Source: Armatimonadota bacterium
GTDB taxonomy: Bacteria > Armatimonadota > Fimbriimonadia > Fimbriimonadales > Fimbriimonadaceae
Direction: 5' to 3'
DNA: 64,000 nucleotides
Assembly: GCA_020161505.1 (NCBI GenBank)
Contig: JAIUNY010000010.1
Span: 1 to 64,000 of the forward strand
Each line of letters begins with the position of its first letter. The stretch's first letter is position 1. The notes beneath the pieces were generated by a model that was not told where the DNA came from, ran no database searches, and saw only the letters and a program-made list of their open reading frames with translations. Shown here piece after piece: positions 22,901 through 40,573 of the stretch. The position numbers were made by a program, and so were the translations under genes.

Positions 22901-22992
22901 GCGTCTGGAATGGGCAGAAAGAAATCCTGGGAAAAATTACATTAGGACCGGGTGATCTTTCTGCCTACAATCCGTTATAGTAACAGTTACCA

Positions 22993-23118
22993 CAGCTTTG
23001 CTGGGGAGTAGCCTGCACGCATGTGCCTCGTCAATACAGGATTCCGGTGAAAACTGGCACTCCTCGGGGCCATGAGCGATGAGTTCACACTCAACGCTGG
23101 GCGAGACCATTGAAGCGT
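22993..23118 (+). ncRNA. yybP-ykoY (manganese) riboswitch upstream of P-type ATPase
   Basis: Conserved blocks of RF00080 appear in order: GGGGAGTAGC (23003-23012), CTCGTCAATAC (23028-23038) and GCTGGGCGAGACC (23096-23108). The flanks GCTT...GG (22995-23004) and CC...AAGC (23107-23116) can close the P1 helix. These blocks form the Mn2+ site in solved yybP-ykoY riboswitches. The element sits 22-30 bases before the ATPase ATG at 23140, in the correct orientation. TACAAT (22969-22974) and TATAGT (22977-22982) upstream could supply the -10. No intrinsic terminator is obvious, so control may be translational. Confidence 0.85.
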
Positions 23119-23139
23119 TCTGGTGCAGAGCGTCTCAAA

Positions 23140-25920
23140 ATGGTACAAGAACACACGCCCGTCGTGACGACTTCTTCGTCGTCCCCGAACTCCTGGCATA
23201 CCCAGGATCCCACCACGGTTCTTTCCACCTGGGAAAGTACGTTGGAAAATGGTCTGACTGACCAAGAGGCCACGGTACGCCTCGAAAAGCATGGTCGCAA
23301 CGTGCTGGAGCGCAAGGCCGCAGACGGCCCGCTCGTTCTCCTGTGGCGGCAGATCAACAATCCTCTGATCTGGGTGCTGATCGCGAGCAGCGTCATCGCC
23401 TTCGTCGCGGACCCGAAGGATGGCCTCAAGAACGGCCTCGTGATCCTCGCGGTCGTTGTCCTCAACGCGATCATTGGATTTGTCCAAGAATTCCGCGCGG
23501 GCAAGGCGATTGAAGCCCTCAAAGACTTCGTCCCTGAATTCGCCACCGTGCTGCGCAATGGCACCAAGAAGCAGGTTCCCGTCGCGGAAATTGTGCCGGG
23601 TGACATTGTTTCGGTGATGAGCGGCGACCGCGTTCCGGCGGATATGCGCCTGGTTCAGTGCCGCACCCTTCTCGTCGAAGAGGCGGCTCTGACCGGAGAA
23701 TCTGTCCCGGTCGAGAAGAAGCTCGACTCGGTGGCAGAAGATGCGACTCTTGGAGATCGCAAGAATATGGCTTACGGAGGCACCTTGGTCACTCAGGGTG
23801 CGGGCCTGGGCGTGGTGGTCGCGACGGCGGGCGATACGGAGCTCGGTCGCATCAACACGATGCTCAATGAGGCTACGGAGACAGAAACTCCGCTCTCTCG
23901 TTCACTTTCCCAGATCGGAACCGTGCTCTCGATCGGCATCGGCGTGGTGGCTCTGCTGATTCTGATCTTGGGCACGGCTCGAGGCGTTGGTCAAGGCCTG
24001 GAAATGGCGGCGGCGTTCCGAGAGTCGGTGATCTTTGCGATCACCCTCGCGGTTGGCGCGATTCCCGAGGGACTCCCCGCGATTGTCACGATTGCTCTGG
24101 CGATCGGCGTGCAGCGCATGGCGGCTCGAAAGGCGGTCGTTCGCAAGCTCCCGAGCGTCGAGACGCTTGGTAGCACGACGGTGATCTGCAGCGACAAGAC
24201 GGGAACTCTGACCAAGAACGAAATGACGGTGCAAAGCATCGTCACCGTCGATGGCGCGAAGTACACGATGACCGGCGTCGGCTATGAGCCAGTCGGGGAT
24301 TTGATGCGCAACGGCGAAAAGGTCACGGAAGCTCCGGCGGATGTGGCTCTGCTCCTGAAGGCAGCCGCGCTTTGTTCCGATGCCACGCTGGAAGACGACA
24401 ACGGCATCTGGCGGCTCCACGGCGACCCGACTGAGGGTGCGCTGGTCGTGGCGGCCGAGAAGCTGGGCTACGAGTCAGGGGTCTTGCGAAAGAGTGCTCC
24501 GCGGATCGACGCAATTCCGTTCGAGTCGGAGTATCAGTTCATGGCGACTCTTCAGGACTACAACGGTCAGCGTTGGATCTTTATGAAGGGATCGCCGGAA
24601 GCGGTGCTCAAGCGATCGGCGGGCATGGACGCGAATGCAGTTCTCAGCGACGTGACGGCACTGGCGAGCCAAGGTCAGCGCGTGCTCGGGATCGCGGGCA
24701 AGAAGGTCTCGGCGGATCATGCCGAACTGGCGTTCAGCGATGTCGATCAGGACATGGAGTTCCTTGGTCTGGCGGCGATGATCGATCCGCCGCGTAAGGA
24801 GGTCATTGACGCGATTCGCCTCGTCCACGGGGCCGGCGTGACGGTGAAGATGATCACCGGCGACCATGCGAAGACCGCCGAGGCGATTGGCGAGCAGCTC
24901 AACATCGCCGATGGTCGCGATGCGATCACGGGTACTCAGCTTGCTGAGATGGACGACGCGCAGATCCGCGTGGCGGCCAAGAGCACCAACGTCTTCGCCC
25001 GCGTGGCCCCTGAGCATAAGCTCCGCCTGGTGCGGGCTCTGCAGGAGGAAGGCCAGGTTACGGCGATGACCGGGGACGGCGTCAATGATGCTCCGGCGCT
25101 CAAGCAGTCAGATATCGGCGTGGCGATGGGTATCACAGGAACCAGCGTGAGCAAGGAATCGGCGGACATTGTTCTTGCGGATGACAACTTCGCGAGCATT
25201 GTCGCGGCGGTTGAAGAAGGCCGACGGGTGTACGACAACCTCATCAAGTCGCTCGCGTTCGTTCTGCCGACCAACCTCGGTTTGGCGATGATCCTGATGG
25301 CGGCGGTTGCATTCTTCCCATTCGTGGGGGGTGAGCTTCTGCTCCCGATGCTCCCGACGCAGATTCTCTGGATCAACCTTGTGGCGACAGTTGCCCTCGC
25401 GTTGCCGTTGGCGTTCGAGAGCAAGGAGCCGGATATCATGTCGCGGCCTCCGCGCAACAAGAAGGAACCCGTGCTGAGCGGGTTCGTGATTGCGCGGACC
25501 TTCATTGCGGCTACCCTGATGACGGTGAGCGCGGTCGGGCTCTTCCTGTGGCAGTACAACAAGGATCTGCCGCTGGTGCAGGCCGGTCAACTCTCGATGC
25601 CGATGCTTCTGGCGGAAGCTCAGACGATGGCGGTCACCACGGTGATCTTCTTCCAGATCTTCTACATGCTGAACTGCCGATCTCTGCGCGATTCGATCTT
25701 CCGCATTGGTCTGTTCAGCAACAAGTCGGTCTTCGCCGGGATTGCCGCGGTGTTGGTTCTGCAAGCCGCGTTTATCTATCTGCCGCCCCTCCAAGCAGTG
25801 TTCAGCACGGCTCCTCTCACCCCGATGGCTCTTGGCATCTCGGCGGTGGCAGGCATGTTGATTCTGCCGGTGATCACGGTGGAGAAGTTGATCCGAGGTC
25901 GCAAGCGCGCGACGGTCTGA
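23140..25920 (+). CDS. P2-type cation-transporting ATPase, manganese-riboswitch controlled
   Basis: The 926-residue membrane pump has the P-type landmarks: TGES in the actuator domain (about 185), membrane helix PEGLPA (about 310), phosphorylated DKTGTLTKNE (about 353), the nucleotide-domain KGSPE, MTGDHAKTAEAIG, and TGDGVNDAPALKQSD (about 645). It belongs to the P2A (SERCA/PMR1, CtpF) group. The M6 segment reads WINLVATVALALP, without the aspartate of NLVTDGLPA in calcium pumps, so the ion preference differs or is uncertain. The upstream yybP-ykoY riboswitch argues for Mn2+ efflux, as for other Mn-regulated P-type ATPases. TTG 23110 is an alternative start. Confidence 0.9.
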   Translation: MVQEHTPVVTTSSSSPNSWHTQDPTTVLSTWESTLENGLTDQEATVRLEKHGRNVLERKAADGPLVLLWRQINNPLIWVLIASSVIAFVADPKDGLKNGLVILAVVVLNAIIGFVQEFRAGKAIEALKDFVPEFATVLRNGTKKQVPVAEIVPGDIVSVMSGDRVPADMRLVQCRTLLVEEAALTGESVPVEKKLDSVAEDATLGDRKNMAYGGTLVTQGAGLGVVVATAGDTELGRINTMLNEATETETPLSRSLSQIGTVLSIGIGVVALLILILGTARGVGQGLEMAAAFRESVIFAITLAVGAIPEGLPAIVTIALAIGVQRMAARKAVVRKLPSVETLGSTTVICSDKTGTLTKNEMTVQSIVTVDGAKYTMTGVGYEPVGDLMRNGEKVTEAPADVALLLKAAALCSDATLEDDNGIWRLHGDPTEGALVVAAEKLGYESGVLRKSAPRIDAIPFESEYQFMATLQDYNGQRWIFMKGSPEAVLKRSAGMDANAVLSDVTALASQGQRVLGIAGKKVSADHAELAFSDVDQDMEFLGLAAMIDPPRKEVIDAIRLVHGAGVTVKMITGDHAKTAEAIGEQLNIADGRDAITGTQLAEMDDAQIRVAAKSTNVFARVAPEHKLRLVRALQEEGQVTAMTGDGVNDAPALKQSDIGVAMGITGTSVSKESADIVLADDNFASIVAAVEEGRRVYDNLIKSLAFVLPTNLGLAMILMAAVAFFPFVGGELLLPMLPTQILWINLVATVALALPLAFESKEPDIMSRPPRNKKEPVLSGFVIARTFIAATLMTVSAVGLFLWQYNKDLPLVQAGQLSMPMLLAEAQTMAVTTVIFFQIFYMLNCRSLRDSIFRIGLFSNKSVFAGIAAVLVLQAAFIYLPPLQAVFSTAPLTPMALGISAVAGMLILPVITVEKLIRGRKRATV

Positions 25921-25942: not shown

Positions 25943-25981
25943 GCGGGCAGGAGGGCTTCGGCTCTCCTGCTCGCTTTTTTT
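25943..25981 (+). terminator. Terminator of the cation ATPase
   Basis: GCGGGCAGGAG (25943-25953) pairs with CTCCTGCTCGC (25964-25974) with one internal mismatch, followed by seven T residues. Confidence 0.85.
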
Positions 25982-26057
25982 AAGTTCGTCCTTAAGAATC
26001 TTGAGGAAGGGTCCTACCTGGCTCAACGTTTCTTGAGATATTTGCGTCTAAGTGTGT

Positions 26058-26363
26058 ATGGCCACTCCGGTGCCTCCGACTCCTTCGCGAACCCCTTGGG
26101 GGGCGATTCTCAGCTTGGTGAGCGCGCTCGCCTATGGCGTGTCGCCGCTTGACCTGATTCCCGATATCCTGCTCCTGGTGGGGTGGGTGGACGATGCGAT
26201 CCTCGTGCCGCTGCTTTTGGTGATAGCCGGGGTGAGTTTCTTCCGGCACAAGGCTCGGATGAAGCAAGAGTCCACTGGAACCTCGGTGATTCCGGCGCAA
26301 GCTCGTTCGGTGAATGAGCCGCCCGTGATCCCGAACGACTACGAGTCGGCCACGGCTCGGTAA
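26058..26363 (+). CDS. DUF1232 (YkvA-like) small membrane protein
   Basis: The 101-residue protein carries the DUF1232 signature YGVSPLDLIPDILLLVGWVDDAI (about 29-51) followed by a hydrophobic stretch (LVPLLLVIAGVSFF) and a polar C-terminus. The family is widespread and its function unknown. The ATG at 26058 is preferred to GTG at 26052. A strong terminator follows. Confidence 0.8.
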   Translation: MATPVPPTPSRTPWGAILSLVSALAYGVSPLDLIPDILLLVGWVDDAILVPLLLVIAGVSFFRHKARMKQESTGTSVIPAQARSVNEPPVIPNDYESATAR

Positions 26364-38776: not shown

Positions 38777-40573
38777 ATGGATCAATCGCACATCCGTAAC
38801 TTCTGCATCATTGCTCACATCGATCACGGCAAGTCGACGCTCGCTGATCGCATCTTGGAGCATTGCGGAGCCGTACGCGGCACCGCCCAAGAGCAGATGC
38901 TGGACACGATGGATCTGGAGCGGGAACGCGGCATCACGATCAAGATGACCGCTGTGCGGCTGGAATACAAAGCCCGCGATGGTCAGACGTACCAGTTCAA
39001 CCTGATCGACACCCCGGGGCACGTGGACTTCACCTACGAAGTCTCGCGCGCTCTCTACGCCTGTGAAGGCGCGCTGTTGCTCGTGGATGCAACGCAGGGA
39101 GTCGAGGCTCAGACGATCGCCAACGCCAACATGGCGATGAATCAGAACTTGGAGATCATCCCGGTGGTCAACAAGATGGATCTCCCCCATGCTGATTTGG
39201 ACATGGCCAAAGAGGAGATCGAAAACGCCCTGATGCTCGATGCGAGCGACGCCATCCCTTGCTCGGCCAAGAGCGGACTGGGAATCGAGGACATTTTGGA
39301 GGCGGTGGTCGCGCGGATCCCATCGCCACGCGGGAAGTCGGACAATCCGCTGCGCGCGTTGATTTTCGATAGCCACTTTGATAGTTATCAGGGCGCGGTG
39401 GCCTATGTTCGGGTTGTCGATGGCGCGATCAATCCGGGCGACAAGATCAAGATGATGTCCACGGGCAAGGTGTTTGATGTCGACGAAGTCGGTGTCTTCC
39501 GCCCGAGGCTGGAGCGTGGTCAGAGCCTTGAGACGGGGGAAGTTGGCTTCCTGACCGGAGCGATCAAGACGATTGGCGATGCGAGCGTGGGCGATACCGT
39601 CACGAGTGCCGAGCGCTCGGCCGACGAGGCTCTGCCGGGTTACCGCAAAGCCAAGTCGATGGTCTACTGCGGTCTGTATCCCACCGATTCAGACTCTTAC
39701 GAGGACCTGCGCGATGCGATTCAGAAGCTGCAACTCAACGATGCGAGCTTGGAGTACGAGCCGGAAACATCTGCCGCCCTCGGATTTGGCTTCCGCTGCG
39801 GATTTTTGGGGCTGCTCCACATGGAAATCATGCGCGAGCGGCTGGAGCGCGAATTCGATCTGGATTTGATTCTCACGGCACCGAGCGTGGACTACAAGGT
39901 TCAGACCACGGCGGGGGAAGAACTGCACATCTCCAACCCGAGCGAGATGCCGCCGAGCAACCACATTTCCTACGTGGAAGAGCCGGTGGTCAACGCCACG
40001 ATCATGGTTCCTGTGGATTACATTGGCGCGGTGATGACCCTGTGCCAAGAAAGGCGCGGCATCTTCAAGCGGACGGAATATCCTACGCCGAACCGGGCGA
40101 TGATCCACTACACGCTCCCGCTGGCCGAGATTCTGTTGGACTTTTTCGACAAGTTGAAGAGTTCGACAAAAGGCTATGCTAGCTTTGACTACGAGTTCGC
40201 GGGCTACGAGCTCAGCGAGCTGGTGAAGGTGGACATCATGCTGAACGGCGATGTCGTGGACGCGCTGAGCTTTATCGTCAACAAGCAATTCAGCTACCAG
40301 CGTGGCCGGGCGATTGTCGAGCAGCTTCGCAAAGTCGTTCCGAGACAGCAGTATGAGGTCAAGATTCAAGCGGCCATCGGGGCCAAGGTGATCTCGGCGG
40401 ACGTCATCAAGCCGTTCCGCAAGAACGTCATCGCGAAGTGCTATGGCGGTGACGTGAGCCGCAAGCGCAAGCTCCTCGAAAAGCAGAAGAAGGGTAAGAA
40501 GCGGATGAAGAACATCGGCTCGATCGAGGTTCCGCAGGAAGCCTTCCTCAGCGTGCTTCGGGTTGCGGAGTAG
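38777..40573 (+). CDS. lepA: Elongation factor 4 (back-translocating GTPase LepA)
   Basis: The 598-residue protein matches LepA: G1 AHIDHGKST (about 14-22), ERERGITIK (about 50), DTPGHVDF (about 78), NKMDLPHAD (about 134), [12 protein letters not shown], then LepA domains with [20 protein letters not shown] and the LepA-specific C-terminus ending [18 protein letters not shown]. It is a ribosomal GTPase whose loss is tolerated in most bacteria. TAGAAT at 38746-38751 is a possible -10 box. Confidence 0.95.

Follow-up and report, generated by a model that had tools for sequence, protein, structure and literature searches.

The leader of a P2-type cation ATPase gene in the window (the whole 64,000-nucleotide stretch of DNA analyzed here) very likely contains a Mn2+ riboswitch of the yybP-ykoY class, its aptamer lying at positions 22995 to 23116 and probably acting as a Mn2+-ON translational switch of a cation exporter that is probably encoded on a single-gene transcript. 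Five things were computed here: the aptamer sequence, its fold, covariation among its relatives, its link to an ATPase subfamily, and the mutual exclusion of helix P1 and a pairing that covers the start codon. By analogy with the family, the ligand would be Mn2+ and the direction of control ON. The element is a genuine, fairly typical member of a well-studied class, and the pump a probable exporter of Mn2+ (or of Mn2+ and Ca2+). The proposal of an earlier note that a Mn2+ riboswitch controls an exporter is thus supported by sequence, fold, covariation and gene context, but the note's argument from membrane segment M6 of the pump fails, and Mn2+ efflux is argued here from the regulation of the gene.

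Sequence and fold of the aptamer

The three sequence blocks of yybP-ykoY RNAs, which the earlier note had placed in order upstream of the ATPase ATG, are all there on the + strand: GGGGAGTAGC at 23003 to 23012, CTCGTCAATAC at 23027 to 23037 and GCTGGGCGAGACC at 23096 to 23108, the last ending 31 bases 5′ of the ATG at 23140. A generalized pattern combining the three blocks had a single match in the 64 kb, and 100 dinucleotide-preserving shuffles of the window yielded none.

The check named in the earlier note, a search of the leader with the Rfam model RF00080 (Rfam 15), came out below threshold, a result that the note had said would count against the riboswitch: there was no match in the window at the gathering cut-off and none at E ≤ 10 on a 301-base stretch. 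That cut-off is a detection threshold, however, not a biological feature. We collected control loci carrying the same blocks from other phyla (Bacillus, Paenibacillus, Thermus, Xanthomonas, Variovorax and others), and RF00080 at its gathering cut-off recognized only 4 of 28 (1 of 10 plus 3 of 18). The genes downstream of these loci, assigned by eye and by motif, encode mostly membrane proteins and include TerC/YkoY-like, UPF0016-like and P-type ATPase families, and the recognition of four of the loci by RF00080 at the same place shows that the control set belongs to the yybP-ykoY family. Since the model misses so many comparable loci, the negative result in the window reflects the model and not the RNA, and we rejected RF00080 as an arbiter because of its insensitivity. 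Nor did any of the 113 genomes from the host's order give an RF00080 match over the cut-off.

An independent covariance model, R1, was built from an alignment of 43 aptamers of other phyla, none of them from the host's order. In this seed alignment, P1, P3.1, P3.2 and P4 form standard pairs in 87% of cases and 20 of the 25 pairs are changed on both sides, while slid controls are paired in at most 49%; because a similar block pattern had been used to collect the seed loci, the block matches are not independent evidence, but the structure is. R1 found 22995 to 23116 at 41.8 bits with an E-value of 5.7e-9 (R1 E-values are rough, coming from a short calibration), the next best match in the window scoring 10.9. 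Matches occurred in 52 of the 113 genomes of the host's order, with a best score of 57.6 bits, and in 85 of 291 genomes of the phylum. Across the 60 matches from the order, pairing reaches 89.7% and 22 of 25 pairs covary, against at most 51% pairing in slid controls, which are the fair comparison for an alignment fitted to R1. P4 is hardly represented in this alignment.

Unconstrained minimum-free-energy folding of 22995 to 23116 gave the architecture of the class. The 5′ strand of P1 (22995 to 23004) pairs with 23107 to 23116 at 9 of 10 positions, and P1 is 98% paired in the 60 relatives. Next come the two sides of L1 (GGAGUA, 23005 to 23010, inside the first block, and GAGA, 23103 to 23106) and P1.2 (GCCU, 23011 to 23014, with GGGC, 23099 to 23102). 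In P3 (23020 to 23074), P3.1 is formed by CAUG (23020 to 23023) and GCCUCG (23025 to 23030) with CGGGGC (23065 to 23070) and CAUG (23071 to 23074), and it abuts L3 (UCAAUAC, 23031 to 23037), followed by P3.2 within 23038 to 23064; a P4 hairpin at 23075 to 23098 is weakly conserved in the host's order. Of 1,000 block-preserving shuffles, 2 reproduced the flush P3.1-L3-P3.2 arrangement, and not one yielded the full set, for which P3.1 needed 6 or more pairs and P1 8 or more. GCAC-GCAU-GUGC could form a separate P2 hairpin, but the minimum-free-energy fold spends CAUG on the longer P3.1. In the structure of the Lactococcus lactis riboswitch, the invariant adenosine A41 contacts Mn2+ through N7 (PMC9190785), and by alignment its equivalent is present in L3 as A23033; docking of L1 with L3 is known for the family (PMC6754395).

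Compared with the class as represented by RF00080 and by the L. lactis yoaB and Xanthomonas oryzae aptamers, the window element has the same three blocks, the same P1/L1/P1.2, P3.1/L3/P3.2 and P4, the same UCAAUAC with its metal-contacting A, and the same position 5′ of an exporter gene. It differs in a minimum-free-energy fold without a separate P2 hairpin, as in many aligned Firmicutes members, in a 23-nt linker with a predicted start-codon pairing in place of a terminator, and in lying below Rfam detection.

The position of the element 5′ of a metal-homeostasis gene is conserved in relatives. Within the order, the window's ATPase and eight others make up a single group with at least 55% identity to the window's protein. 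The element was found in the window and at all seven assessable orthologues, which come from related species and so are not independent events, either directly upstream of the ATPase gene or, as the head of an operon, before one preceding gene, encoding a zinc-ribbon protein in one genome (G074) and HtpX in two (G084 and G085). The ninth member (G051) was left out because of its position at the edge of a contig. For 17 ATPases of the order that are more distant, the examined flanks, some of which were short, contained no element above 15 bits.

Two readings that would deny the leader a working Mn2+ aptamer can be set against these results. That the blocks are a chance resemblance is favored by the RF00080 failure and nothing else, and we regard it as already refuted by conservation upstream of the orthologues, in addition to the shuffled windows and the R1 E-value. 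Very improbable, too, is a decayed or variant aptamer that has lost or changed its ligand and for that reason gains no Rfam score. The R1 score, below the best in the order, would agree with it, but RF00080 at its cut-off overlooks most comparable loci anyway, L1 and L3 are intact, as is the metal-contacting A, and different genera share both the fold and the synteny.

The transcript that carries the aptamer could start from a promoter with a tentative −10 element, TATAGT, noted by eye at 22976 to 22981 on the + strand; TATA[ACG]T occurs within 45 bases upstream in 13 of the 60 related leaders against a shuffled mean of 1.9, and no match to a full sigma-70 consensus was found for the ATPase leader promoter. 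Downstream of the ATPase gene, on the same strand, lies a strong intrinsic terminator with a 14-pair stem and a T tract (25943 to 25981), so the transcript probably carries the ATPase gene alone. Directly 3′ of this terminator, a small DUF1232-domain membrane protein is encoded at 26052 to 26363.

Predicted control at the start codon

The predicted expression platform occupies 23106 to 23144 on the + strand: ACCAU at 23106 to 23110 pairs with AUGGU at 23140 to 23144, which contains the start codon, and this pairing excludes P1. In the metal-free fold it closes the hairpin GCGUUCUG/CAGAGCGU. When P1 was enforced, the mean unpaired probability of the start region rose from 0.22 to 0.71, a difference reached by none of 300 linker shuffles. 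The folding calculation contains no Mn2+ energies and hence gives no concentration at which the switch turns.

These calculations lead us to lean toward translational rather than transcriptional control. The alternative, that the same aptamer acts through a terminator or Rho and not through start-codon pairing, draws on the fact that most relatives in the host's order, including the htpX copy of the same genome, have a terminator that uses the 3′ strand of P1 as its 5′ arm. Against it, the stretch from the end of the aptamer (23116) to the ATG, 23 nt in length, has no T tract, a search for a transcription terminator there found none, and enforced P1 makes the start region accessible; we judge transcriptional control unlikely, though Rho may still act on this leader. 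Strong sequestration of the start codon was found in the window leader alone, and because it is slight in two orthologues whose leaders are short, start-codon control is a model-based prediction for the window leader and not a conserved fact.

In the mechanism described for the family, Mn2+ docks L1 with L3 and stabilizes P1.1, and a competing downstream structure is thereby prevented (PMC6754395). At high cytosolic Mn2+, Mn2+ and Mg2+ would dock L1 with L3 (UCAAUAC) and so stabilize the switch helix P1, which would then hold the strand ACCAUUGA. In the metal-free RNA, ACCAUUGA would instead pair with the start codon and close a hairpin over the ribosome-binding region. Metal binding would thus free the start codon and turn translation on, and the pump would then remove the excess Mn2+, perhaps Ca2+ too.

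The ATPase and the ion that it moves

The gene at 23140 to 25920 (+ strand) encodes a P2-type cation ATPase of 926 amino acids with the Pfam domains E1-E2_ATPase, Cation_ATPase_N and Cation_ATPase_C, the phosphorylation motif DKTGT and the motif GDGVNDAP. Its ATG at 23140 is supported by the start of an orthologue (MTQEHTH versus MVQEHTP). The best NCBIfam match, under its cut-off, is PMR1-type, and the closest solved structure is the Listeria Ca2+ pump lmo0841, with human SPCA1 and SERCA also matching. The pump departs from the SERCA/PMR1 site of P2A calcium pumps, with Leu in place of E771 in M5, the glutamate expected of two-ion pumps, and Thr in place of D800 in M6. The nine-member group is one clade (support 100/99), and all its members have Leu where SERCA has E771 and Thr, Ser or Ala where it has D800.

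The earlier note was right that the ATPase lacks the aspartate of the calcium-pump M6 segment, which reads NLVATVALAL where calcium pumps have NLVTDGLPA. It had gone on to take this absence as a sign of an ion other than calcium, and that step we rejected. In Firmicutes, Chloroflexi and Nitrospirae, the M6 Asp is retained by all six of the P2 ATPases whose genes directly follow such riboswitches, and Mycobacterium tuberculosis CtpF, a P2 ATPase that is reported to be a calcium pump, has no D800 either (PMC7525011). By its published description, CtpF keeps the other Ca2+ ligands except A305, whereas the window pump lacks E771 too. A candidate second Asp-less riboswitch pump, from Nitrospirae (L060), was left uncounted because several unrelated genes intervene.

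The case for Mn2+ export rests instead on the riboswitch and on the precedent of pneumococcal MgtA, described as a Mn2+/Ca2+ ATPase under such a riboswitch (PMC11434433). Like Streptococcus pneumoniae mgtA and L. lactis yoaB, the window gene is a P-type ATPase gene with a yybP-ykoY Mn2+ riboswitch 5′ of it (PMC11434433; PMC9190785); MgtA and YoaB are known here by description, and the window pump belongs to a clade in which Leu replaces E771 and Thr, Ser or Ala replaces D800. By analogy, the pumped ion is probably Mn2+.

A competing reading keeps the Mn2+-sensing aptamer but has the pump export mainly Ca2+, or several divalent ions, so that Mn2+ would be a signal or one substrate among several. 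The best matches are calcium pumps (lmo0841, PMR1-type, SERCA), MgtA itself is described as having the double specificity, and CtpF shows that a reported calcium pump can do without D800. Yet equivalents of both E771 and D800 are missing from nine of nine members of the subfamily, and a Mn2+ riboswitch is present at every assessable one; we hold a calcium or multi-ion pump to be rather improbable and keep Mn2+ as the favored ion.

Mn2+ riboswitches across the host's order

The genome of the window element contains a second Mn2+ riboswitch. This one (L222:888-1911), on contig C9, has its aptamer at 39387 to 39482 (45.6 bits) 5′ of a gene for an HtpX-type M48 protease, and among the weak RF00080 matches elsewhere in this genome, the one at this place (C9:39383) was the only one that R1 confirmed. 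The htpX copy has a terminator-like hairpin sharing the 3′ strand of P1. The two TerC genes of the genome, C21:6148-6756 and C25:82211-82783 (L247 and L248), have no riboswitch match in their flanks, and no Nramp importer was found in the genome.

Behind the 60 aptamers of the order, the first gene is most often that of TerC, counted whether or not a zinc-ribbon protein comes before it (26), or HtpX (18, two of them followed by a P2 ATPase); the rest are P2 ATPases (6), outer-membrane-efflux-like proteins identified by eye (5), zinc-ribbon proteins with no TerC within reach (3), one carbonic-anhydrase-like protein and one universal-stress-like protein. The carbonic-anhydrase-like gene belongs to a genome of the host's genus (L186). 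The zinc-ribbon protein, a small Pfam Zn_ribbon_TFIIB protein with the sequence CPxCxGVWLDRGELDK, regularly sits between riboswitch and terC (L199, L193, L220, L167 and others) or, in G074, the P2 ATPase gene. At L182, L188, L191, L212 and L213, the riboswitch lies 5′ of the gene for a signal-peptide protein that resembles outer-membrane efflux (TolC-like) proteins; the first 90 residues of one of these gave no Pfam match.

Many of these leaders share a second element. GRAAC-N15..18-CGT occurs within 60 bases upstream of 27 of the 60 aptamers, against a shuffled mean of 0.28 and a largest shuffled count of 3. With the looser GNAAC, the number rises to 35 of 60 leaders (set L163-L221), 32 of them with a spacing of exactly 17 bases, and the element mostly ends up 11 to 15 bases before the aptamer. 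To judge from its sequence, GNAAC-N17-CGT resembles an ECF sigma factor promoter. HtpX leaders nearly always carry it, that of the same genome included (GAAAC-N17-CGT), and the window's own leader has none.

In Bacillus subtilis, HtpX co-purified with a TerC protein (PMC10246235). Of the B. subtilis TerC proteins MeeY and MeeF, MeeY is riboswitch controlled (PMC10246235). TerC genes are likewise the most frequent targets of the riboswitches in the host's order, but there htpX itself lies behind a riboswitch, and in the literature that we searched we found no paper linking a yybP-ykoY riboswitch to htpX control. It is conceivable, at somewhat less than even weight, that the riboswitch of this order heads an undescribed regulon, in which an ECF-type promoter (GNAAC-N17-CGT) and the Mn2+ aptamer would together control genes for metal handling and for quality control of the envelope, among them those of HtpX, of TerC behind its zinc-ribbon protein and of the outer-membrane-efflux-like protein, and that the window pump, as part of a distinct P2 subfamily, exports Mn2+ without the M5 Glu and the M6 Asp of calcium pumps.

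The aptamer itself is ordinary; the interest lies in an Rfam model that is blind to it, in the unusual subfamily of the pump and in the possible regulon of HtpX and ECF-like promoters. The current model misses most of the class members tested (24 of 28) and all the matches found in the host's order, and as a consequence Mn2+ control is under-annotated in whole bacterial groups. A P2 ATPase subfamily that lacks the acidic residues of calcium pumps and stands under Mn2+ control offers a hypothesis on substrate. That a Mn2+ riboswitch is tied to HtpX, a protease, and to ECF-like promoters agrees with a report that associates TerC proteins with secretion and with quality control of the membrane (PMC10246235).
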